Source: Gluconacetobacter diazotrophicus PA1 5
Lineage (GTDB): Bacteria; Pseudomonadota; Alphaproteobacteria; Acetobacterales; Acetobacteraceae
Length of the DNA stretch: 64,000 nt
Direction: 5' to 3'
Assembly (NCBI RefSeq): GCF_000021325.1
Contig: NC_011365.1
Coordinates: 3,252,001-3,316,000, forward strand
Of the stretch, positions 14,635 to 27,579 are shown piece after piece (position 1 is the stretch's first letter; the number at the start of each line of letters is the position of its first letter). The position numbers were made by a program, and so were the translations under genes. The notes below the pieces were generated by a model that did no database searches, was not told the DNA's origin, and saw nothing but the letters and a program-made list of their open reading frames with translations.

Positions 14635-15717
14635 ATGGGTAGGACAATGCGGATTCTTGTAACGGGTGGATGCGGGTTCATCGGCTCGGCAGTGGTGCGG
14701 CACATTATCGGCGGCACGGGCCATTCGGTGGTGAATGTCGATAGCCTGACCTATGCGGCGACGCTGGAGTCCACGGCCGAAATCTCCTCGGACCCACGCT
14801 ATGTGCATGTCCGGGCGGATATCACCGACGGGGCGGCGATGCGGGCGGTGTTCGCGGCGCATCAGCCGGATGCGGTGATGCACCTGGCGGCCGAAAGCCA
14901 TGTTGACCGGTCGATCGACGGGCCGGGCGTGTTCGTGCAGACCAACGTGGTCGGCACCTATACGCTGCTGGACACGGCGCGGGAGTACTGGTCGGGGCTG
15001 GATGCGGCGGGGCGGGCGGCATTCCGCTTCCACCACGTCTCGACCGACGAGGTCTTCGGCACGCTTCAGCCGGGGGATGCCCCCTTTACCGAAAGCACGC
15101 CCTACGACCCGCGCAGCCCCTATTCGGCGTCCAAGGCGGCGTCGGACCATCTGGTGCGGGCGTGGCAGCACACATACGGGCTGCCGACCTTCGTGACCAA
15201 CACCACCAACAATTACGGTTTCTGGCATTTCCCGGAAAAGCTGATCCCGCTGGTGACGATCAACGCTATCGGCGGCCGCGCGCTGCCGGTCTATGGCGAT
15301 GGCGCCAACATGCGCGACTGGCTGTTCGTCGACGACCATGCCGAGGCCCTGGTGCTGGCGGTCGAACGCGGCCAGCCGGGTGAGACCTACGCCATCGGCG
15401 CGCGCCAGCCGCGCAGCAATCTGGACGTCGTCCGGGCGATCTGCACGGTGCTGGACGATTTGCGGCCCGACCCGGCGGGCCCGCACGCGCGGCTGATCCG
15501 CTTCGTCACGGACCGGCCAGGCCACGATTTCCGCTACGAGATCGATCCCTCGCGGGCCGAGGCCGCGCTGGGCTGGCGCGCACGCCACGATTTCGAGACC
15601 GGAATCCGCCGGACGGTGCAGTGGTACCTGGACCATCAGGATTGGTGGACGGCATTGCAGGCCCGCCATGACAGCAATCGGCGGCTGGGCGTTACCCCGG
15701 CAGGAGCCGCAGCATGA
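14635..15717 (+). CDS. rmlB: dTDP-glucose 4,6-dehydratase
   Basis: This short-chain dehydrogenase/reductase family enzyme converts dTDP-glucose to dTDP-4-keto-6-deoxyglucose, the second step to dTDP-L-rhamnose. The Rossmann motif GGCGFIGSA lies near the N-terminus, followed by [22 protein letters not shown], and the catalytic YSASK. All are diagnostic of RmlB. The 360-residue reading starts at ATG 14635; ATG 14647 would remove four residues. It opens rmlBACD and overlaps rmlA by four bases. Confidence 0.96.
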
Positions 15718-16610
15718 ATCCGCAGAAGATCGAGACCGCGATGAAGGGCATCCTGCTGGCCGGCGGGTCGGGCACGCGGCTGCACCCGATGACGCTGGCG
15801 ACCAGCAAGCAACTGCTGCCGGTCTATGACAAGCCGATGATCTACTACCCGCTTTCGACGCTGATGCTGGCGGGCATCCGGGACATCATGATCATCTCGA
15901 CGCCCGACGACCTGCCGCAGTTCCGCCGCCTGCTGGGCGACGGGACGCAGTATGGGGTGCGCTTCACCTATCGCGTCCAGCCTTCGCCGGACGGCATCGC
16001 CCAGGCTTTCCTGATCGCGGAGGACTGGCTGCAGGGCGCGGCCTGCGCGCTGGCGCTGGGCGACAACCTGATCTTCGCCGACCATCTGAGCGTGCTGCTG
16101 CAGGCGGCGGCGCGGCGCGATGTCGGCGCCACGGTGTTCGCCTACCAGGTGCAGGACCCCGAACGCTATGGCGTGGTAAGCTTCGACGCCGACGGCCGCG
16201 CCCGCGACCTGGTGGAAAAGCCCGCCCAGCCGACGTCGCGCTGGGCGGTGACGGGGCTGTATTTCTACGATTCCCGCGTCAGCGCCTTCGCCCGCGCGAT
16301 CCGCCCCTCGGCCCGGGGCGAGCTGGAGATCACGGACCTGAACCGGATCTATCTGGAAGAAGGCTCGCTGCAGGTGGAAAAGCTGGGCCGGGGCTGCGCC
16401 TGGCTGGATGCCGGAGTACCCGACGCGCTGATGCAGGCCGGGATGTTCGTGCAGACCATCCAGTCCCGCCAGGGCATGCTGGTCGGATCGCCCGCCGAGG
16501 TCGCCTTCCGCATGGGATTCATCGACGCCGCGCAACTGCGCGCGATCGCCCAGACGGTGCACAAGACCGAACTGGGACGCCTGCTGCGCGACCTGGCGGA
16601 CGGGAGATAG
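15714..16610 (+). CDS. rmlA: Glucose-1-phosphate thymidylyltransferase
   Basis: It joins glucose-1-phosphate and dTTP to give dTDP-glucose. The nucleotide-binding motif [11 protein letters not shown] is near the N-terminus, followed by [18 protein letters not shown] and the EKPAQPTS segment; ALGDN is the metal site. ATG 15714 has AGGAG upstream and overlaps rmlB by ATGA, giving 298 residues; ATG 15741 (MKGILLAGG) would match shorter homologues. It is cytosolic and typically feedback-inhibited by dTDP-rhamnose. Confidence 0.96.
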
Positions 16611-16615
16611 ACAGC

Positions 16616-17167
16616 ATGCAGATCGAACACCTTTCCATCCCCGACATCCTGCTGTTGACGCCGCGCCGCTTCGCGGATGAGCGGGGGTTCTTCTCCGAGA
16701 CCTACAACCTGCGCACCATGGCCCAAGCTGGAATCGATGTGGCGTTCGTGCAGGACAATCACAGCTTGTCGCGCCAGCGTGGCGTGATTCGCGGCCTGCA
16801 TTGCCAGTTGCCGCCCCACGCCCAGGGCAAGCTGGTGCGCTGCACGCGCGGCGCGATCTGGGACGTGGCGGTGGATGCGCGGCAGGGCTCGCCCAGCTTC
16901 GGCCGATGGGTCGCCGCCGAACTGAGCGAGGAAAACGGGTCGCAGCTCTGGATTCCGCCGGGATTCCTGCACGGGTTCTGCACCCTGACCGAGAATGCCG
17001 AGGTGCAGTATAAATGCACCGACCTGTGGGACCGCGACTGCGAACGCTCGGTGCGTTGGAATTCCCCGGACCTGGCCATCGCGTGGCCGGTGGCGCCCGA
17101 GGATGCCGTCCTGTCGGAGAAGGACGCCGCCGCGCCGGACTTTTCCACCGTGCGGGACTGGTTCTGA
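16616..17167 (+). CDS. rmlC: dTDP-4-dehydrorhamnose 3,5-epimerase
   Basis: The 183-residue cupin-fold enzyme epimerises C3 and C5 of the 4-keto-6-deoxy sugar. Signatures: FFSETYN, FVQDNHSLS, GVIRGLHCQ with the catalytic His, and WIPPGFLHGFCTL. YKCTDLWD supplies the conserved tyrosine region. Size is typical. Its TGA overlaps the rmlD ATG by one base, so the set is one transcription unit. Confidence 0.96.
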   Translation: MQIEHLSIPDILLLTPRRFADERGFFSETYNLRTMAQAGIDVAFVQDNHSLSRQRGVIRGLHCQLPPHAQGKLVRCTRGAIWDVAVDARQGSPSFGRWVAAELSEENGSQLWIPPGFLHGFCTLTENAEVQYKCTDLWDRDCERSVRWNSPDLAIAWPVAPEDAVLSEKDAAAPDFSTVRDWF

Positions 17168-18060
17168 TGGTGGGCTGCCCGATCCTGGTGATCGGCCGGT
17201 CCGGCCAGCTCGCCACCGCGCTGGGACGGTCCAACTCGCCCGGCCTGCACTGCCTCGGGCGCCCCGACCTCGATTTCGATCGGCCGGAGACGGTGGACAC
17301 CGCGATCGCAGAGGCCGCGCCCGGCCTGGTCGTCAACGCTGCCGCCTGGACGGCGGTGGATGCGGCCGAGGACGACGTGGCGGGGGCCGAGCGTGCCAAC
17401 CGAGACGGCCCGGCGCATCTGGCCCGGCTGTGCGCCGCGCGGGGCATCCCGCTGATCCATGTTTCGACCGATTACGTGTTCGACGGCACCAAGGGCGCGC
17501 CCTACGTCGAAACCGACCCGACCTCGCCCCGCACGGTCTATGGTCGCAGCAAGGCGGAAGGCGAGCAGGCGATCCTGGCGGTCCATGACCGCGCGATCAT
17601 CCTGCGGACGGCGTGGGTCTATTCCCCATATGGGCGGAACTTCGTGCGGACCATGCTGAATGCGGGGGCGAAGAACCCGGTGCTGCGGGTGGTGGGCGAC
17701 CAGCGGGGCAACCCGACCAGTGCCGACGACCTGGCCGGCGCTATCCTGTCCATTGCCGACACCATTGCCCGTGACGGCTGGCGGGATGCGTTCGCCGGGA
17801 TCACTCATGCCGCCGGCAGCGGCGACACCACCTGGCACGGCCTGGCCGTCGCCGCATTGCAGGATGCGGCCCGCCTCGGCCGCCCGATGCCCGTCGTCGA
17901 AGCCATCACCACCGCCGACTGGCCGACCCCGGCCGCCCGGCCGCAGGATTCCCGCCTGGACTGCACGCGCCTGCATGACGTGTTCGGCGTCCGCCTGCCG
18001 CACTGGCGTGACAGTGTCGCGCGGACGGTCACCACATTGTTGGCCAACCCGGCGGCGTGA
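17167..18060 (+). CDS. rmlD: dTDP-4-dehydrorhamnose reductase
   Basis: It performs the last, NADPH-dependent step to dTDP-L-rhamnose. The 297-residue protein has GRSGQLATALGR at its start (the dinucleotide site), NAAAWTAVD, STDYVFDG and the catalytic YGRSK. The frame is open upstream across rmlC, but conservation begins at ATG 17167, which overlaps the rmlC stop (TGATG). A stable hairpin lies about 40 bases downstream. Confidence 0.96.
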   Translation: MVGCPILVIGRSGQLATALGRSNSPGLHCLGRPDLDFDRPETVDTAIAEAAPGLVVNAAAWTAVDAAEDDVAGAERANRDGPAHLARLCAARGIPLIHVSTDYVFDGTKGAPYVETDPTSPRTVYGRSKAEGEQAILAVHDRAIILRTAWVYSPYGRNFVRTMLNAGAKNPVLRVVGDQRGNPTSADDLAGAILSIADTIARDGWRDAFAGITHAAGSGDTTWHGLAVAALQDAARLGRPMPVVEAITTADWPTPAARPQDSRLDCTRLHDVFGVRLPHWRDSVARTVTTLLANPAA

Positions 18061-18265: not shown

Positions 18266-19171
18266 ATGAATCACGAAATATGCGCTGTTGTGGTGACTTA
18301 TAATTCCGACATCGCGGTATTTCGGGATGTGATGGCAGCTCTTCATGAGCAGGTTGGAAGAATCGTCGTCGTGGACAACCATTCGCGCAACGCTGCCGAG
18401 ATTGGCGGCGTCGTTCGAAAAGGCCCGCATGAATTTCTGGAACTTTCGGAAAATATGGGGCTGGCCCACGCACAGAATGTCGGCATTTCCCATGGGATCG
18501 GGCAGGGTGCCAAATATATTTTGCTGATGGATCAGGATACGATCCTGCCCGAAGGCTCGGTGAACCATCTCCATGATATATGCGTAAAGCTGGAACATGA
18601 GGGTGTCTGGGTCGGTGCGGTAGCAAATGCGTATCGGGACACGCAGGACGGGCAGATAAATGCTATCTGGCGAGGGGATGGACGCAGGGTCGTTCGACAG
18701 CACGTCGATCCGGAAAAAGAAAAATTAGTGGAAGTTGATTTTCTGATTGCGTCCGGTTCACTAATTCCAGCCAGAATATTGCAAAAAATAGGATTGATGG
18801 ACGAATCCCTATTTATAGACTTGGTCGATGTGGAATGGGGCCTGCGGGCGATGGCTCGCGGCTATCGGAGTTTTATAAGTTTCGAGAAAATCATGAGTCA
18901 TTCCTTGGGGAATGGAAGAATAAATGTATTGGGTCGTGTAATATCATTGCACAGTCCGTTTAGAAATTACTACATGGTGAGGAATTCTATCATTTTAGCG
19001 CGAAGGAAATATATTCCCGTATCGTGGAGGATATATTTCTTAAGAAGGGTCATTCCATTTTTTGTCATATTTGGTTTTTTTGCTGATAGAAAAATGTCCA
19101 GAATTCGCTTTATGGTCCGAGGGGCCATGGACGGTGTGTTGAATCGGGGGGGCCGATCTCCTCTGAATTGA
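18266..19171 (+). CDS. GT2 glycosyltransferase, rhamnosyltransferase-like
   Basis: The 301-residue reading has a GT-A fold: VVVTYNS (8-14), VVVDNHS (34-40), NMGLAHAQNVGI (63-74) and the metal motif DQD (89-91). MDQD and this spacing are typical of bacterial L-rhamnosyltransferases, so it probably uses the dTDP-rhamnose made by the preceding genes. An upstream ATG (18125) would add 47 residues but lies in a hairpin, and conservation starts at ATG 18266. The 3' half (from about 18700) is markedly AT-rich, unlike the rml genes, a sign of transfer. Acceptor unknown. Confidence 0.8.
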   Translation: MNHEICAVVVTYNSDIAVFRDVMAALHEQVGRIVVVDNHSRNAAEIGGVVRKGPHEFLELSENMGLAHAQNVGISHGIGQGAKYILLMDQDTILPEGSVNHLHDICVKLEHEGVWVGAVANAYRDTQDGQINAIWRGDGRRVVRQHVDPEKEKLVEVDFLIASGSLIPARILQKIGLMDESLFIDLVDVEWGLRAMARGYRSFISFEKIMSHSLGNGRINVLGRVISLHSPFRNYYMVRNSIILARRKYIPVSWRIYFLRRVIPFFVIFGFFADRKMSRIRFMVRGAMDGVLNRGGRSPLN

Positions 19172-21501
19172 ATGTTCAGGATGTGCCTGGGAAACCGGAC
19201 GCATTGCCGCCTTTCGGGAGAAAATGTTTCAATTTTGCAATGTGGGCAATAATGATCAATATCATAAAAAAAAATAAATCGGTCGATATAAATAAAAACG
19301 CCCTTTGTGTCATATTGCTGGTGTGTGCTCCACTTCTCCTGAAGTTTCCACTTCTGATCGGCCTGCTGATCGCCGATCCTGCGCTGCTCTATGCCGGGCT
19401 CCAGACCGGTCTGCATGCCGGTCCGCTAACCGGCTATCCGCCGATGCCGACCATCGACCCGAACATCGGTTTCACGAGTCATGCACTGGGGTATCGGGCG
19501 GCCGAGGATGTTCTGAGCGGACGCCTGCCGTGGTGGAATCCCTATGAGGGCGTGGGTATGCCCCTTGCCGGGGAAATGCAGTCGGCGGCGCTGTTCCCAT
19601 TGACGTTATTGCTGGCGCTGCATAATGGCCAGTTGTACATGCATCTATGCTTGCAGATCATTGCGGGCCTTTCGACCTATGCAGTACTGCGCAAGATCGG
19701 ATGCATGCGCTTCGGCGCGCTTGCCGCGGCCCTTGTATTCGAATTCGATGGCACATTCGCCTGGCTGGCCAATGCCGTTATCAATCCCATCGCCTTCCTG
19801 CCATTGACCCTCCTGGGCGTCGAAACGATACGGGAGCGGGTCGAGGCCGGACGCAGGGGAGGCGGCGCATGGGTCACGATCGGGCTCTCCGCTTCGCTCT
19901 ATGCCGGCTTTCCCGAGGTCGCCTATCTGGACGGCCTGCTGGTCCTTGCCTGGACGTTGGTGCGGCTGGGTTCACTCGCGCGTCCGATGCGCTGGGCCTT
20001 CCTGCGCCGGATCGTCGTTTCTGGCCTGGCCGCACTGGCGATTTCCGCACTGATCCTCGTTCCGTTCGGCGACTATATGCTTGTTGCCAACACGGGGGGA
20101 CACGCGAATGGTGGTTTCGCGTTCATCTCGCTGAGTCCGGCCTTCCTGTTCGCCCTGCTGGTGCCTTATGCCTTCGGCGGAATCTTCCAGATTCCGCAAT
20201 ATACGGAGTTCTGGTCATCGGTGGGGGGATACACAGGCTGCATTCTGCCTGTCCTTGCGCTGTGCGGCCTGGGAGGACAGGCGTTGCGCGGCGTGAGGGT
20301 CGCGCTGGGGCTGTGGATTGTCGTGACGATCGGCATCGCGTACGGCGCACCGGGGGCCGGCCTCCTTGCCCAGTTCTTCCCGGGGTTCAAGTTCGTGGCG
20401 CTCTACCGTTATTTGTCGCCGTCCTGGGAATTCTGCCTGTGCGTGCTCGCCGCATTCGGGTTGACGGACCTGGCACGAAACCACAGGTTCGCCCGGGTTA
20501 CCGCCGCCTGCATTGCCGTTGCGGCCGTCTGCGTCGTGACCGCCTATGTGACGCATCGACATCATCTGCCCCTGGCGCGCAACAGGCTTGCGCTGGACAG
20601 CATCGTGTTTGCCGCGATCCTGCTGATCGGTACCGGCGTGCTGGCCTGGCTGCCCCTGACGGCGGCGACACGGTCACGCGGCATGGCGGGCGTGCTCGTC
20701 GCGGAAGTCGCCGTGCTGTTTGCCTTGCCGTCACTCAGTTCTCCGTCGCATGGCGCCATCGACCTGACAGGGGTACAGTACCTGCAGCAGCATCTCGGTT
20801 TTCAGCGTTTCGCGACATTCGGGCCGGTTCAACCCAACTATGGCAGCTATTTCGGGATTGCGTCCATCAACCACAACGATCTTCCGCTCCCCAGGGACTG
20901 GACGGATTACGTTGCCCGGCACCTCGATGCCAATGCGCCGTCGATCCTCTTCACAGGCTTCAGCCGGAACGATCCGAACGGTCCGTCCGCGGCGGACAAT
21001 CTGGTGGTGAACGTCGAGGCCTATCGGAAGGCGGGCGTGCGATTTGTCCTGGTGCCTGCGGGATCACTGGACAGCCCGGGCTTCGCATCGTTCAAGCACT
21101 ATGCCGCAGCCGATCATGGCGTGCGGGAAGCATTCGGAAACGGCGTGATGCGGATTTTCGAACTGCCCGATCCGACACCCTATGCCGCGGCACCCGGCTG
21201 TGTGCTGACGCCTCGTTCCCGCGATCTCATGGACGTCGATTGCACCGGACCGTCGCAACTGACCCGCCTGGAAATGTACATGGAGGGCTGGCACGCGTCC
21301 GTCGACGGCAACCCGGTGCCGATCAGCCGGACGGGCGAGATTTTTCAGCAGATACCGGTTCGACAGGGTCGTTCCGTCGTGACGTTCCGCTTTGTGCCAC
21401 CCCATATCCAGTGGGCGTTTTTCGCCTTCATTGTCGGCTGGATCCTTTTCGCGATCGACCTTCTGGGAGGGAAGGAGCGCACGGCAAGGAAAATCCTGTA
21501 G
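19168..21501 (+). CDS. YfhO-like multi-pass membrane protein
   Basis: About 777 residues with many hydrophobic segments and an early periplasmic-type loop containing GRLPWWNPYEGVGMPLAG and SAALFPLT, resembling YfhO/GT-C-type membrane proteins that act in glycan modification. The C-terminal third is soluble-looking, with a final membrane helix near residue 755. The longest frame starts at TTG 19168, overlapping the glycosyltransferase stop; ATG 19240 or 19252 are alternatives. The first roughly 150 bases are AT-rich and the rest GC-rich. It may transfer sugars from a lipid carrier; this is inferred from family and location. Confidence 0.65.
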   Translation: MNVQDVPGKPDALPPFGRKCFNFAMWAIMINIIKKNKSVDINKNALCVILLVCAPLLLKFPLLIGLLIADPALLYAGLQTGLHAGPLTGYPPMPTIDPNIGFTSHALGYRAAEDVLSGRLPWWNPYEGVGMPLAGEMQSAALFPLTLLLALHNGQLYMHLCLQIIAGLSTYAVLRKIGCMRFGALAAALVFEFDGTFAWLANAVINPIAFLPLTLLGVETIRERVEAGRRGGGAWVTIGLSASLYAGFPEVAYLDGLLVLAWTLVRLGSLARPMRWAFLRRIVVSGLAALAISALILVPFGDYMLVANTGGHANGGFAFISLSPAFLFALLVPYAFGGIFQIPQYTEFWSSVGGYTGCILPVLALCGLGGQALRGVRVALGLWIVVTIGIAYGAPGAGLLAQFFPGFKFVALYRYLSPSWEFCLCVLAAFGLTDLARNHRFARVTAACIAVAAVCVVTAYVTHRHHLPLARNRLALDSIVFAAILLIGTGVLAWLPLTAATRSRGMAGVLVAEVAVLFALPSLSSPSHGAIDLTGVQYLQQHLGFQRFATFGPVQPNYGSYFGIASINHNDLPLPRDWTDYVARHLDANAPSILFTGFSRNDPNGPSAADNLVVNVEAYRKAGVRFVLVPAGSLDSPGFASFKHYAAADHGVREAFGNGVMRIFELPDPTPYAAAPGCVLTPRSRDLMDVDCTGPSQLTRLEMYMEGWHASVDGNPVPISRTGEIFQQIPVRQGRSVVTFRFVPPHIQWAFFAFIVGWILFAIDLLGGKERTARKIL

Positions 21502-21560: not shown

Positions 21561-23327
21561 TTACGGCAGGTATGTCGTCAGCGCGACGCGCTGGTTTCGC
21601 GTACTGCCCCATGCATCGAAATTTTCGACGGACGCCAGTAAGCCGCGCGTTTCCGCGTCAATCGATTCGACAAAGTCCACAACCGGCAGTGCAGTCGCCA
21701 GCGGATCGGCAACAAGGCCGATCTCGGCGCAAAGATTACGGAATGTCAGCGCGAACTGTTCGATGCCGTCCGTGATCTCCGTCGAAATTCGGGCATGGCC
21801 ATCAATGGCAATTCGCCCGGAATCCTCGATGATGGCGACATCCTTTCCAATCGCATCCTGGTAGCCGATGACGGCGTCATGGGGTGCCGAGAAGAACAGT
21901 TCGACGGCGACACGATTGGCATAAACGGCGGTTACCCGTTCCGGGCCGATTGATTCGCGCGACAGCAGGGCGTCCATCCTCAGTCTTTGCCGCCGCCGCC
22001 GGCAATCATCCGATTCGTTCAGGCACAGGTAGTAGCCGAACAGTTCGACCTGCATCAGCTTGCCGAGGGCGAGGTCGAAGGCATCCTGCGTCGTTCCGTT
22101 CCAGCCCACATCGACCATGGCGACGCGCATGCCCGGTTCAACGCCCACCTGTTTGAGGTAGTTGAGGAGGCCGCGCCGGTTGCGACGGCATACCTGCAGG
22201 ATGTCTCCGCGGAAGGCGCCCACGAAATCCCGGATGCGGCTGATATTGTCATTGCTGATGACGATTCCGGCTCCGAGGCCGAGGTCATCCATCACCCGGT
22301 CGGCCGGTGGCGTGACGCCCAGCCGCTCCAGCACCTCGATCGGCCGCAATCCATGTGCGCCCGCAAGGAAGAATTCCATCTGCGTATTGAAGTTGGACTC
22401 GTCGGTGGCGGCGAGCGTAAAGGCGACGCGCGAGCCCATGAAATAGGTGAAACGCGGCAAGGTCCCCGCGGGCATCGTGCGGGCGAGGCGTTCAAGAACA
22501 TATCCGTCTCGCGATACGAACAGCACGATGTCGATCTTGTCCTGCGCTGATTTGCGGACAATCCAGTCGAGGAAGCCCACTGCCGCCGGCCCGCCGAAAC
22601 GAAACCCGAGTTCGGTAAACGATCCCGGCGGCGGCCGATCGGCGATCGAGCGGATGAGGCTGCCGGCGATCGATGCCGACGGGGGAAAGCGACTGGATTT
22701 CTGCTGTCGTGTGGGATCGACGTAATGATAGGCGGACAGGCCTTTTTGCCTGGCCCGTTCCACGTCCGACAGCGGATTGTCCCCGATATGCAGGATGCGC
22801 CCCGGGTCTATGCCGAGTTCCTGTGACACCCGGTCGAACAGTTCACCGGTATCGCGCTTGGTTGCGTTTCGCTCCGACGAAATGAAGGTCGCGCTGGGCT
22901 GCAGCCGGTGCTTGTGGAAAAGATCGTCGAAGAAGGCTTGCGGCAGGTACATATCCGACGTGATGACGACGGGTTTATCGGCGATCGTCTGCCTGAACAC
23001 GTCCATGAGATCGGGATTGGGCAGCGTCAGGGCGAGTTCGAGCTGGTACTCGGCATCGCGCAGCACGGATGCCGGCACCGACACGGAATCGAAGCACGCA
23101 TAGATGCCGTCGAGCGTGATTTCCTTCTGTCCGTTCTCCCGCATGCGCTGGAACGCCCGTACCTGCGCTTCCTGGCGCAGGCGGCGGAAGGAGGCGATGC
23201 CGAATTTCTCGCCGATGATGTCGAAGAGGTCTTCCGGATCGGCAAGCGGGCGGACGAACAGCGTATCGAACACATCGAAAGAGACGGCGTCGGCTCGTGC
23301 GATGGACTGCTTCAGGTGGGACACCAT
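21561..23327 (-). CDS. HAD-like two-domain protein of a surface-glycan locus (COG5610-like)
   Basis: The 588-residue protein starts with a HAD fold: FDVFDTL (nucleophile Asp18), VITSDMYLP (motif II), a lysine in ATKRDTGELF, and HIGDNPLSDVERA (motif IV). The second half has LFVSRDGYVLERL, GSRVAFTLA and VDVGWNGTTQ, typical of COG5610 proteins found with glycosyltransferases. The residue two after the nucleophile is Phe, not the Asp usual in HAD phosphatases, so chemistry is uncertain. It follows the fusion gene on the same strand after 49 bases and was probably co-transcribed with it. Substrate unknown. Confidence 0.7.
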   Translation of the reverse strand: MVSHLKQSIARADAVSFDVFDTLFVRPLADPEDLFDIIGEKFGIASFRRLRQEAQVRAFQRMRENGQKEITLDGIYACFDSVSVPASVLRDAEYQLELALTLPNPDLMDVFRQTIADKPVVITSDMYLPQAFFDDLFHKHRLQPSATFISSERNATKRDTGELFDRVSQELGIDPGRILHIGDNPLSDVERARQKGLSAYHYVDPTRQQKSSRFPPSASIAGSLIRSIADRPPPGSFTELGFRFGGPAAVGFLDWIVRKSAQDKIDIVLFVSRDGYVLERLARTMPAGTLPRFTYFMGSRVAFTLAATDESNFNTQMEFFLAGAHGLRPIEVLERLGVTPPADRVMDDLGLGAGIVISNDNISRIRDFVGAFRGDILQVCRRNRRGLLNYLKQVGVEPGMRVAMVDVGWNGTTQDAFDLALGKLMQVELFGYYLCLNESDDCRRRRQRLRMDALLSRESIGPERVTAVYANRVAVELFFSAPHDAVIGYQDAIGKDVAIIEDSGRIAIDGHARISTEITDGIEQFALTFRNLCAEIGLVADPLATALPVVDFVESIDAETRGLLASVENFDAWGSTRNQRVALTTYLP

Positions 23328-23376: not shown

Positions 23377-26300
23377 TCATGAAAGCGAAAAATAAAAATC
23401 ATTGGGTCCCAAATTGGGATTGTAGAAAGGATCGTGCATCAGGAAATGTGGATTTTTATAATAAAGCCGATTTTTTTCCTGATCGAGGCGTCGCCGTTTT
23501 TCTTTGTTTTTGTTGTCATTTCCTCGGCTTAGAGATTCATAATGGAAAAGCTCAGCGCCAGGACACACCACATTATAGAAGCCGTGTTCTACCAGACGGA
23601 AACACAGATCGACGTCGTTATAGGCGATCGGGAAGGACTCGTCGAACCCGCCGACAGCATCAAATTTCGTTCGCTCGATCATGAGGCAGGCTCCGGTCAC
23701 GGCGATCCAGTCATATTCGAGCAAATTGCGGGCGAAATAGCCCGGAGTGTATGCGTCGGCAGACCAAAAGGCGTGATTGGGACCATCCGCCAGATTCAGG
23801 ACGCCACTATGCTGGATTTTCCGGCTGTCTGGATACAACAGCTTGGCACCGACAGCGCCGACATGCGTAAGTTGCGCATATCCGGCCATCCGTCCGATCC
23901 AGTCAGGTGAGATCACCTGAGTGTCGTCGTTCAGGAACAGCAATAGGCTGCCCTTCGCATCGCCGACGCCGATATTGTTGATCTCGGAATAGTTGAACGG
24001 TGCGTCATGCCTTATCACCCGCACGTTCGGGTTGGCGTGAAGGGAGTCCAGGTAATTCACCGTTGCCGCGTCGGTTGAACCATTATCAAGCAGGACGATT
24101 TCGAAGTTTCGGTAATGCGAATGTCCAAAAATGGAATCGAGACAGTTTTTCAATACGGTCCCGTTGTTCTTGGTGGGAATGATGATGGATACCAGCGGGG
24201 TTCCCTGCACGTCATAATTGACGCGGAAATATCCCGCCAGTTGCGGGACGGCTTCGATCGTTCCCTTCAGTCCACGACGTTCGAGCGCCGCCATGCGGGC
24301 GCGACGGCCCGCGTCGACCGCATAAGGCTTCGCATTCAAATCTGAAGCCACTGATTGCGGGATGATACGCCAGTGATAGAGCACCTTCGGCACGTGAGAG
24401 ATGCGTTTGGCCGCTTCCGTCACGCGCAGGACGAAATCCCAATCCTGACTTCCGTCGAATTCCGATCGCAGATCGCCCACCGTTTCGAGCAGCGCGCGGC
24501 GCACGCACGACACGTGACACGTGTACATCGTGCTCATCAGCGTATCGGGCGACCAGTCGGGCTTGAAGAACGGCTGGCTGAAACGCCCGTCCGGCTCGAT
24601 CTTGTCCTCGTCGCTGTAGACGTAGTCGGGATCTTCCGCGTCGATGCATTTCGCCAGTTCGAACAGGCAGTCGTCGGTCAGTTCGTCGTCGTGATCGAGG
24701 AACACGATGTAGTCGCCGCCGGCTTCGGCCAGCCCCCGATTGGTCGCACCCGATATTCCCATGTTGCTTTCCAGCAGAATGGTCCTGATCCGGGGATCGA
24801 CGAGCTTCGACGCATTGTCGCGCACGGATTGCTGCGGACTCTTGTCGTCGACGAGGATCAGTTCCCAGTGCGGATACCATTGCGCCAGGACGGAGCCCAC
24901 CATTCGCTGGAACAGATCGTCCGGCGTGTTGTACAGCGGCACGACGATCGAGAATGCGGGGCGCTTCGCCAGGCGCGCGATCTGCGCGTCCAGATTGTCG
25001 GGGCGCCGCCGGGGTACGAAGACGTAGCCCGACGGGTCGGAGGCGAGCCGATAGGTGCCTTGCGGCATCCCGTTCGGCAGTGCGGTGCCGGATGATGCCG
25101 GCCAGGGCTGATAGGCGATGTGCGGGCAGGACGGGTCGCCTGGCGTCTCGCTGAAGACGGCGTGCTGTACCGCGCGCGCGCGGCGGAAACGGAGTCGCGC
25201 GGGCATCCGATGGGGCGTCATGGCCCACCACACCGCCTTGGCACCGCGCCGCAACTGGTGACGCACACGGGGCGAAAGGCGCGACCCCACGTCCCGGGCG
25301 ACCTTCGTGGCGCGCCAGGTCGTGCTGGCCCGGATCTGCGCGACCTCGGTATTCGTCAGCGCCAGCACGTTCTGGACGCTGGAAAGATCCCGTTGGGTAA
25401 TGGACAGTTCGCCTTGAACCGACGACAGGTCGGTACGCAGGCGCTCGTCCTCCTGGTCACGGGCATCCAACTGCTGGTTCAGGTCGTCGATATTCGCGGA
25501 AAGATCCTTCTGGATGCTGTCGCGTTCGTGCTGGATCGACGACAGATCCGCGCGCAGCCGCTCTTCGTCCTGGGCACGGGTCGCCAGTTGCTGATGCAAG
25601 GCGCCGATTTCGGCATTCAGTTCCCTGTGGGCCCGTTCCAGCACGTACTGGGTCGAAACGGCGGCGCCCAGCCGTGAGTAGGCTTCGCGTATCGCCACGC
25701 GGGCCTCGGTGCCGCTCTCCAGCAGCGGGCGCAATCCGGGCGGCACGCGCGAACCCGGACAGAGTACGCCCAGCCCGTGCCCGTGAAAGAATTCAAATGA
25801 CGGGTGTCTGGCGCGCAGTTCCTCCCACAGGCGCCAGACCCCGAAATCGCCTTCCCGAACGTTGATGTCGTGGAACAGCACCACGCCGTGTTCGGACATT
25901 TTCGGCAGCCAGGTCGTATAGTCCTCGAGGACATCTTCGTAGCGGTGTCGTCCGTCGATGTGCAGGAGATCGATCTCGCCGTCCGTGAAATGGACGAGCG
26001 CATCGTGGAAATACGCGCGGATGAGTCGCGAGAATCCCGCATAATGCTGCCCCTGAAGGCCGGACAGGGTGTTGAATACCTGTTCGCCGTAAAAGCCGGC
26101 GTGCTCGTCCCCCGCCCAGGTATCGACCGCATAGCACCGTGTCGGCAGCCTGAGCCGCTGGACCGCCTGGCAGAACGCGAGGAACGAGAACCCGGCATGC
26201 GTCCCCAGTTCGACGAAGACGGCCGGCTGAACCTTCTCCATCAGCCAGAACGCGAACGGTGCGTGCTCCAGCCATGCCGATTCCAGGATATGCTGTGGTG

Positions 26301-26403
26301 CCCAGAAGGAGGCCGGACCAACACATGGAACAGATGTGTCCATTCCCCCTTCGTGATCGGGTGCGGAGACATTTTCTGGATGATTAGACACTGGCTTTCT
26401 CAC
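23377..26403 (-). CDS. Methyltransferase / coiled-coil / double GT2 fusion protein
   Basis: The 1008-residue protein has four parts. Residues about 55-220 form a SAM-dependent methyltransferase (motif I VFVELGTHAGFS 62-73, LLHIDGRHRYEDV, LFHDIN). Residues 255-355 are a charged coiled coil with an internal repeat. GT2 domain one spans about 483-700 (FSIVVPLYNTP, FLDHDD at 568-573). GT2 domain two spans about 737-960 (VSIIIPTKNNGT, FLNDDT at 823-828). It likely methylates and extends or caps a glycan, with the coiled coil as a spacer. The 3' end (23377-23540) is AT-rich. Donor and acceptor are unknown. Confidence 0.75.
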   Translation of the reverse strand: MRKPVSNHPENVSAPDHEGGMDTSVPCVGPASFWAPQHILESAWLEHAPFAFWLMEKVQPAVFVELGTHAGFSFLAFCQAVQRLRLPTRCYAVDTWAGDEHAGFYGEQVFNTLSGLQGQHYAGFSRLIRAYFHDALVHFTDGEIDLLHIDGRHRYEDVLEDYTTWLPKMSEHGVVLFHDINVREGDFGVWRLWEELRARHPSFEFFHGHGLGVLCPGSRVPPGLRPLLESGTEARVAIREAYSRLGAAVSTQYVLERAHRELNAEIGALHQQLATRAQDEERLRADLSSIQHERDSIQKDLSANIDDLNQQLDARDQEDERLRTDLSSVQGELSITQRDLSSVQNVLALTNTEVAQIRASTTWRATKVARDVGSRLSPRVRHQLRRGAKAVWWAMTPHRMPARLRFRRARAVQHAVFSETPGDPSCPHIAYQPWPASSGTALPNGMPQGTYRLASDPSGYVFVPRRRPDNLDAQIARLAKRPAFSIVVPLYNTPDDLFQRMVGSVLAQWYPHWELILVDDKSPQQSVRDNASKLVDPRIRTILLESNMGISGATNRGLAEAGGDYIVFLDHDDELTDDCLFELAKCIDAEDPDYVYSDEDKIEPDGRFSQPFFKPDWSPDTLMSTMYTCHVSCVRRALLETVGDLRSEFDGSQDWDFVLRVTEAAKRISHVPKVLYHWRIIPQSVASDLNAKPYAVDAGRRARMAALERRGLKGTIEAVPQLAGYFRVNYDVQGTPLVSIIIPTKNNGTVLKNCLDSIFGHSHYRNFEIVLLDNGSTDAATVNYLDSLHANPNVRVIRHDAPFNYSEINNIGVGDAKGSLLLFLNDDTQVISPDWIGRMAGYAQLTHVGAVGAKLLYPDSRKIQHSGVLNLADGPNHAFWSADAYTPGYFARNLLEYDWIAVTGACLMIERTKFDAVGGFDESFPIAYNDVDLCFRLVEHGFYNVVCPGAELFHYESLSRGNDNKNKEKRRRLDQEKNRLYYKNPHFLMHDPFYNPNLGPNDFYFSLS

Positions 26404-26574: not shown

Positions 26575-27579
26575 ATGAGGATGGAAGTGGCAGGTTATCA
26601 GACGATACCCAGCATTCGCGACATGGCTGGCGAGGCATTTGACGTGGATGAGTGCAGGATTGCCGTCCTGGTGCCATGCCATAACGAGGAACTGGCCATC
26701 GCCCAGGTCGTGCACGATTTTCGCACGGCACTGCCGGGCGCGGTCATCTATGTCTACGACAACAACTCCACCGACCGGACGGTGGACGTCGCCGCGGCGG
26801 CCGGGGCGGTGGTGCGGACGGAACGCCTGCAGGGCAAGGGGTATGTCGTCCGGCGCATGTTCGCCGATATCGAGGCCGATTTCTATGTGATGGTCGATGG
26901 CGACGCCACCTACGATGCCGCGGCCGCGCCGGCCATGCTGGCCATGGCGCGCGACGAAGGGCTGGACATGGTCAACGGCGCCCGCGTGACGGATCGGGAG
27001 GCCGCCTATCGGCGGGGCCATGTGCTGGGCAACAAGGTCCTGACCGGCCTGGTCACGGCGGTCTTCGGCCATCGGCTTTCGGATATGCTGTCGGGCTACC
27101 GGGTCTTTTCCCGGCGCTTCGTCAAATCCTTTCCCGCCCTTTCGGCCGGTTTCGAGACCGAGACCGAACTGACGGTGCATGCGCTGGAACTCAGCATGCC
27201 GATCGGCGAAGTGGCGACGCAGTATGTCGAACGCCCCGAGGGCACGGTTTCCAAGCTGCGGACCTATCGGGACGGGATCAGGATCCTGCGGACCATCGTC
27301 AATCTGGTGAAGCAGGAGCGCCCGTTGCAGTTCTTCGTCACGCTCGGGGCGCTGCTGTTCCTGCTGGGCCTGGGGACCGGCGTGCCCGTCGTGCTGGAAT
27401 TCCTGCGCACGGGACTGGTGCCCCGGCTGCCGACGGCCGTGCTGGCGACCGGGTGCATGATGCTGGCGGGACTGGCGCTGACCTGCGGCCTGATCCTGGA
27501 CAGCGTGACCCTGGCGCGGCGGGAGGTGAAGCGGCTGGCCTATCTGGCGCTGCCGCCGCCGGCGCGGACGGCGCCCTGA
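26575..27579 (+). CDS. GT2 glycosyltransferase, GtrB/DPM1-like, membrane-anchored
   Basis: The 334-residue protein has a polyprenyl-phosphate glycosyltransferase-like catalytic part: VLVPCHNEELAIAQVV, YDNNSTDRT, the metal motif VDGDATYD, and LSGYRVFSRRF. Two C-terminal hydrophobic segments (about residues 243-265 and 281-303) anchor it in the membrane. Such enzymes load a sugar on undecaprenyl phosphate for later periplasmic transfer. The YfhO-like protein nearby could be a partner (inference). The N-terminus has several possible starts (26575, 26581); about 30 residues precede the conserved fold. Confidence 0.8.
   Translation: MRMEVAGYQTIPSIRDMAGEAFDVDECRIAVLVPCHNEELAIAQVVHDFRTALPGAVIYVYDNNSTDRTVDVAAAAGAVVRTERLQGKGYVVRRMFADIEADFYVMVDGDATYDAAAAPAMLAMARDEGLDMVNGARVTDREAAYRRGHVLGNKVLTGLVTAVFGHRLSDMLSGYRVFSRRFVKSFPALSAGFETETELTVHALELSMPIGEVATQYVERPEGTVSKLRTYRDGIRILRTIVNLVKQERPLQFFVTLGALLFLLGLGTGVPVVLEFLRTGLVPRLPTAVLATGCMMLAGLALTCGLILDSVTLARREVKRLAYLALPPPARTAP

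Follow-up and report, generated by a model that had tools for sequence, protein, structure and literature searches.

In Klebsiella pneumoniae O7, the protein ORF6 joins a methyltransferase-kinase, a coiled coil and two glycosyltransferase family 2 (GT2) modules that use dTDP-rhamnose; it works with a partner ribofuranosyltransferase, ORF7, and its coil is regarded as a ruler (PMC11231755). WsaE of Geobacillus stearothermophilus NRS 2004/3a combines a methyltransferase with two rhamnosyltransferases, and the 2-O-methyl cap that it adds ends chain growth (PMC2943079). WbdD of Escherichia coli O8 and O9a, which takes part in chain-length control, has an N-terminal methyltransferase (methylating only, in O8), a coil and a polymerase-recruiting end (PMC3482155). 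In WbbB of K. pneumoniae O12, a terminator, a coil and two glycosyltransferase modules are again found in one polypeptide (PMC11231755). Here we describe P0001, a 1008-residue protein encoded in a 64,000-nucleotide stretch of the Gluconacetobacter diazotrophicus PA1 5 genome (contig NC_011365.1, positions 3,252,001 to 3,316,000; hereafter the window). P0001 is probably a polymerase, ruler and terminator in a single polypeptide, of the O7 ORF6, WsaE and WbbB type. Its likeness to O7 ORF6 and WsaE was judged from their published descriptions. Since these two proteins have already been characterized (PMC11231755 and PMC2943079, respectively), extension and capping by one polypeptide is not a new principle, and P0001 is a new example of it.

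Domains of the 1008-residue protein

The gene is an uninterrupted frame of 1008 codons read from 26403 to 23377 on the minus strand with a GTG start; an ATG at residue 21 is a possible later start, and stops interrupt the plus-strand reading of 23377-26403. An accidental open frame or a frame fusion was ruled out by full-length relatives from unrelated groups, and the frame cannot be due to chance because a protein of Burkholderia sp. Bp9143 aligns with residues 15-1007 at 59% identity. The original prediction, that a methyltransferase, a coiled coil and two GT2 domains lie in this one protein, is borne out by Pfam and by an AlphaFold2 model made with 38 related sequences. The parts follow one another in this order:

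23377-26403, minus strand: P0001, probable terminator-ruler-polymerase protein, 1008 residues, GTG start
25750-26322, minus strand: O-methyltransferase domain (residues ~28-218), Methyltransf_24, COMT/CCoAOMT-like fold, with the S-adenosylmethionine (SAM) motif VELGTHAG
25330-25710, minus strand: continuous helix, predicted coiled coil (residues 232-358), from AlphaFold2 and a heptad test
25150-25323, minus strand: basic amphipathic region (residues 361-418), from charge, hydrophobic moment and model helices
24199-24963, minus strand: first GT2 (GT-A) domain (residues 481-735), with LDHDD and QDWD motifs
23380-24198, minus strand: second GT2 (GT-A) domain (residues 736-1008), with LNDDT and YNDVDLC motifs

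In Pfam, Methyltransf_24 was matched at residues 64-180 (E 5e-28, 98 bits, cut-off 26) and GT2-type families at 485-610 and 738-957 (the second being Glyco_tranf_2_3), while Glycos_transf_2 reached E 3e-48 over the whole protein. The AlphaFold2 model, with a mean predicted local distance difference test score (pLDDT) of 85.8, consists of two confident globular halves separated by a single helix. The methyltransferase fold extends to residue ~218 and is followed by the helix (232-358), by short helices (361-418), and by two GT-A domains from residue 483 to the end, where pLDDT is mostly >90.

Alignment of 22 relatives revealed that residues E65-L66-G67 and G71 of SAM motif I are invariant, and that D94, D150 and H178-D179 are kept in nearly all of them. 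Thus, the SAM-binding residues, on which the original prediction had staked its methyltransferase, are retained, and a dead domain was ruled out. Modeled separately, the domain had a pLDDT of 90, and both Foldseek and a second fold comparison matched it to cation-dependent O-methyltransferases, the fold that this model assigns to it. The top match had a Z value of 18.0 and a root-mean-square deviation (rmsd) of 2.7 over 175 residues. Further matches were MeT1, an enzyme of methylmannose polysaccharide synthesis (Z 17.4, rmsd 2.9 over 183 residues), and SpnH, the rhamnosyl O-methyltransferase of spinosyn (Z 16.0, rmsd 3.2 over 182 residues), but the first fifty Z values span within 2, and a fold common to MeT1 and SpnH does not prove the substrate of this enzyme. 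These relatives came from the fold search; a sequence profile of the domain gave a single weak match in the PDB.

That the fold is a generic one would suit an enzyme that adds methyl groups to internal rhamnose or ribose, or to each repeat, as the chain grows, with the coil merely oligomerizing the protein. Methylation of internal sugars is common in glycans. However, both characterized proteins of the same domain order methylate or methyl-phosphorylate the chain end (PMC2943079, PMC11231755), and one relative of P0001 holds a Capsule_synth (KpsC-like) domain at the methyltransferase position, which makes such decoration very improbable.

The helix comprises 127 residues and would be ~19 nm long if straight (0.15 nm per residue), and there is no proline within residues 236-370. 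In a heptad test of residues 230-375, the 40 best windows had a higher mean than in any of the 500 shuffles, and the maximum was higher than in all but 3 of them. Self-comparison of the protein uncovered an imperfect 39-residue repeat inside the coil (window 25387-25602, residues about 268-339). As 39 equals 4 heptads plus 11, the phase of the coil would be kept, and duplications could lengthen the ruler. Tandem Repeats Finder detected no tandem repeat at the DNA level in the coil region, and the coil as a DNA-level repeat was ruled out. Residues 361-425 carry a net charge of +12, and the highest hydrophobic moment of the whole protein is at residues 374-391; the segment 361-418 is, judging by its composition, a candidate for anchoring the polymerase end of the coil to the membrane. 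A membrane-associated amphipathic helix of WbdD occupies the corresponding position, after the coil (PMC11231755).

In both GT2 domains, the consensus of relatives retains the metal-binding and catalytic motifs expected of them, and the pair is similar to bifunctional chondroitin and heparosan polymerases. The genome encodes a second GT2-GT2 protein at ~2.009 Mb (locus L114, 7851-10790). It has 980 residues, is 39% identical in the glycosyltransferase part, begins with a different N-terminus of 428 residues, and adjoins GT61 and GT92-like genes.

The resemblance to chain-length-control or capping machineries that had been proposed for this protein holds for WsaE and O7 ORF6, which have the same order and both extend and cap a rhamnose-containing glycan. 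With O7 ORF6/ORF7, the locus has in common the N-terminal methyltransferase, the central coil, the two C-terminal GT2 domains, a separate ribofuranosyltransferase dependent on phosphoribosyl pyrophosphate (PRPP), and clustered rml genes; of the O7 set, the window has the rml genes, a rhamnosyltransferase, the ribofuranosyltransferase and the coiled-coil polymerase, but not the kinase. O7 ORF6 differs in having a 223-residue kinase and a domain like a carbohydrate-binding module (CBM) between methyltransferase and coil, and in making a methyl-phosphate cap. There is no space for either domain in P0001, where about 14 residues separate the end of the methyltransferase fold (~218) from the start of the helix (232). 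A plain O-methyl cap is therefore predicted, as in E. coli O8 (PMC3482155) or WsaE.

By its description, WsaE likewise has an N-terminal O-methyltransferase followed by two glycosyltransferase domains, in a system with an ATP-binding cassette (ABC) exporter. It differs in that a pure rhamnan is made, together with WsaF, for an S-layer protein, and in that its methylation is independent of chain length in vitro (PMC2943079). WbdD acts with a polymerase that is a protein of its own, WbdA, on a mannan, and O9a has a kinase; the terminator of WbbB is a beta-Kdo (3-deoxy-D-manno-oct-2-ulosonic acid) transferase and not a methyltransferase. Common to WbdD, WbbB, O7 ORF6 and P0001 are a catalytic domain at the coil end distal to the polymerase and an extended coil between both.

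Relatives, exchanged N-terminal domains and the ribofuranosyltransferase partner

A homologue search for the same four-part order, proposed with the original prediction, showed that a methyltransferase, a spacer and two GT2 domains recur in a single frame in at least five other genomes. Besides the Burkholderia protein, the relatives are from G028 (52% identity), Nostoc (39%), Phyllobacterium (37%) and G057 (32%). A long spacer helix is present in all relatives of this order examined, and the distance from the cap domain to the first GT2 domain varies from 159 to 364 residues. Such a range, read from sequences, is as expected for a tunable ruler, but equally for a neutral linker.

When only the polymerase half is considered, the nearest relatives are from Burkholderia, Caballeronia, Azotobacter, Ectothiorhodospira, Methylobacterium and others. 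N-termini were compared among proteins whose polymerase halves are about 42-52% identical to that of P0001. Pfam identified the N-terminus as a sulfotransferase in Azotobacter and a gammaproteobacterial metagenome-assembled genome, as PIG-L plus GT2 in Ectothiorhodospira and Halothiobacillus, and as Capsule_synth (KpsC-like) in Amantichitinum; the latter domain belongs to the family of known Kdo transferases. Candidate cap enzymes of other kinds in the place of the N-terminal methyltransferase are what a terminator-coil-polymerase design predicts, and these exchanged domains may, by their position, act as chain terminators.

Fusions of sulfotransferase, coil and two GT2 domains were found at L087 (8705-12262) and L045 (8369-12436) with Pfam, and at L046 (8540-12265), a Lysobacterales protein, by a sulfotransferase-like motif seen by eye, without a Pfam match. 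In these three, the sulfotransferase is a possible sulfate chain terminator; we know of no characterized system with one. A wzt gene of CBM-containing length lies directly upstream of sulfotransferase-GT2-GT2 genes. The proteins with a PIG-L deacetylase and an extra GT2 domain at the N-terminus of the same polymerase (L110, 9341-13048; L050, 9068-12997) hold a further candidate cap module.

The gene next to that of P0001 turned out to encode the second enzyme of the O7-like set:

21561-23327, minus strand: ribofuranosyltransferase, with an N-terminal haloacid dehalogenase (HAD) phosphatase (residues ~13-208) and a PRPP-dependent transferase (~235-500); related to 7SHG and Bcs3

It begins 49 bp downstream of the polymerase gene, on the same strand. 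The Thermobacillus composti ribofuranosyltransferase 7SHG was aligned with it over profile positions 6-571 at E 6e-34, and SRDG-type and DVGWxGT-type stretches are common to the two. The phosphatase and transferase parts of Haemophilus Bcs3 (CrpP-CriT) were matched at E 1e-30, Bcs3 differing in that it also carries a ribitol-phosphate transferase. Both the HAD phosphatase and the PRPP-transferase parts are thus present, and by sequence this HAD-like neighbor is identified as a PRPP-dependent ribofuranosyltransferase; a generic hydrolase was ruled out by the match to nearly the entire 7SHG. Irrespective of the N-terminal domain, a ribofuranosyltransferase gene directly follows the polymerase gene in about 20 loci.

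Variations on this pairing were also seen. In G005, a genome of the same genus, the N-terminus of a GT2-GT2 protein (L116, 10230-13412) is by inspection itself HAD/ribofuranosyltransferase-like, an apparent fusion, and the gene after it retains only the C-terminal part of the partner. Two ribofuranosyltransferase relatives (L048, 11875-13656; L051, 11620-13401) are devoid of the SRDG motif and of parts of the HAD motifs, the polymerase beside them being otherwise intact.

A survey of the family gave matches at E 1e-20 in 20 of 200 genomes, with a close copy only in this genome and G028, and G+C content over parts of the cluster is lower than that of the flanks. Rarity together with lowered G+C suggests that the cluster was horizontally acquired.

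Donor-sugar genes and the route of export

The placement of the polymerase beside dTDP-rhamnose genes and a HAD-like protein, also part of the original prediction, was correct, with rmlBACD (14635-18060) about 5 kb away:

14635-15717, plus strand: rmlB, dTDP-glucose 4,6-dehydratase (TIGR01181, above cut-off)
15714-16610, plus strand: rmlA, glucose-1-phosphate thymidylyltransferase (TIGR01207, above cut-off)
16616-17167, plus strand: rmlC, dTDP-4-dehydrorhamnose 3,5-epimerase (TIGR01221, above cut-off)
17167-18060, plus strand: rmlD, dTDP-4-dehydrorhamnose reductase (TIGR01214, above cut-off); start set at the ATG overlapping the rmlC stop, open frame from 17014
18266-19171, plus strand: rhamnosyltransferase in the polE position, candidate adaptor enzyme (TIGR01556, 215 bits, cut-off 200.6); start set by the profile match, open frame from 18125

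In the window, as well as at the loci of Burkholderia, Caballeronia, Azotobacter and Amantichitinum, the rmlBACD genes are found within 10 kb of the polymerase, which is circumstantial evidence that the GT2 domains use dTDP-rhamnose supplied by them. The polymerase is also flanked by genes for a YfhO-type membrane protein (19168-21501, plus strand) and a polyprenyl-phosphate-sugar synthase-like GT2 (26575-27579, plus strand), which probably belong to a periplasmic system of side-chain modification.

The rmlBACD genes and the rhamnosyltransferase resemble polABCDE of acetic acid bacteria, whose cell-bound polysaccharide depends on polE (PMC5553594). Together with the absence of wzm and wzt from the window, this resemblance could point to a Wzx/Wzy-like route, without an ABC exporter, to a secreted heteropolysaccharide like that of the pol-type pellicle of Acetobacter. 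We consider this extremely unlikely, as wzm and wzt lie directly upstream of the gene in the nearest full-length relative, that of Burkholderia, a GT2-GT2 protein with a ribofuranosyltransferase belongs to the ABC pathway in characterized cases (PMC11231755), and a single Wzy_C-family protein was found in the genome. The genome-wide set of two PF00953 proteins and one Wzy_C protein leaves room for an initiating transferase and a ligase.

An exporter inside the 64-kb window was ruled out, since no wzm or wzt is present there and the ABC2_membrane matches of the genome are located elsewhere. Among close relatives, wzt lies within 10 kb of the polymerase in at least seven. The best counterpart here is an isolated wzm/wzt pair at 3.436 Mb (C1, 3435718-3437328; L113, 7719-9329), whose products share 44% (Wzt) and 36% (Wzm) identity with those of Burkholderia and are related to the galactan RfbD/RfbE families, below equivalog cut-offs. 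The candidate Wzt has 249 residues and consists of the ATPase domain only. A capsule-type cluster at ~752 kb (L112, 8524-12644), with genes for a BexC/CtrB/KpsE-like protein, an ABC permease, a short ATPase and a glycosyltransferase, was judged a less likely exporter: its ATPase scored 112 bits against the Burkholderia Wzt, compared with 224 bits for the pair at 3.436 Mb, and it sits with its own KpsE-like protein.

Several observations weigh against P0001 being a ruler-controlled, self-capping polymerase. The pLDDT of the helix drops from ~94 to ~55 toward its C-terminal end in the AlphaFold2 model. In Caballeronia and Methylobacterium, some near polymerase relatives lack both the cap domain and the coil, so neither is indispensable to the polymerase. 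The cluster and the candidate exporter lie ~158 kb apart, and the link between them is therefore one that we infer; in O7, by comparison, wzm/wzt are linked to the cluster. Both candidate Wzt proteins, in this genome and in Burkholderia, are of ~250 residues and of galactan type, and PF14524 (Wzt_C) was found in neither genome. In all characterized capped O antigens the Wzt has a carbohydrate-binding module, and the galactan exporter is without it (PMC11231755). As no Wzt_C was detected, cap-gated export is not supported here, though a ruler may still control length. Since the Wzt module is a feature of the exporter and not of the terminator, our claim is one of the same architecture and not of full membership among cap-gated systems.

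The same exporter data bear on another explanation, in which terminal methylation of some chains only diversifies the product and the ratio of exporter to polymerase sets the length, as in K. pneumoniae O1/O2a. There, the terminating pyruvyltransferase of O1 does not control length, and O2a length is given by exporter:polymerase stoichiometry (PMC11231755); the relation of the candidate Wzm/Wzt to RfbD/RfbE and the lack of Wzt_C in the genome are in line with it. We regard a cap without a ruler as unlikely, however, because the long helix is kept throughout the methyltransferase-GT2-GT2 relatives examined, even if its length varies, and such a coil marks the ruler strategy in published systems (PMC11231755). 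Thus, the earlier proposal that one polypeptide could both extend and cap a glycan with the coil as a ruler finds good support in anatomy and analogy, short of proof, while an exporter without the Wzt module does not fit the textbook capping pathway.

Proposed synthesis and its wider meaning

On the ruler-and-terminator reading that we prefer, the two C-terminal GT2 domains would extend a lipid-linked glycan at the cytoplasmic face of the membrane, most likely with rhamnose from dTDP-rhamnose. The ribofuranosyltransferase would alternate with them, adding ribofuranose-5-phosphate from PRPP and then dephosphorylating it. The basic amphipathic segment would keep the polymerase end at the membrane, and the ~19 nm coil, probably as a dimer or trimer, would hold the O-methyltransferase at a distance. 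Only a chain that reaches the methyltransferase would receive an O-methyl group on its last sugar, whereupon growth would stop. Export would be by an ABC transporter, probably the Wzm/Wzt pair that is encoded at 3.436 Mb and unlinked to the cluster, and the product would become O antigen or capsule.

Tentatively, we also put forward a broader and more doubtful idea, that the GT2-GT2 protein and its ribofuranosyltransferase form a chassis bearing an exchangeable cap enzyme on a coil of variable length, and that P0001 and its Burkholderia orthologue are served by an exporter blind to the cap. The combination of a ruler-capped polymerase with a cap-blind exporter is not described for the characterized systems compared. 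If true, the control of chain length would be uncoupled from cap-gated export, and the system would offer a natural way to ask whether a ruler can set length only when the cap is recognized. Sulfation would then be a chain terminator of a new type.

The exchanged N-terminal domains suggest modules for engineering both the length and the end group of glycans. The assignment of P0001 would bring a further bacterial family under the O7/WsaE design, in which a single polypeptide extends, measures and caps the chain. The naming of the partner of P0001 as a ribofuranosyltransferase leads to the prediction of a methyl-capped glycan of rhamnose and ribofuranose.

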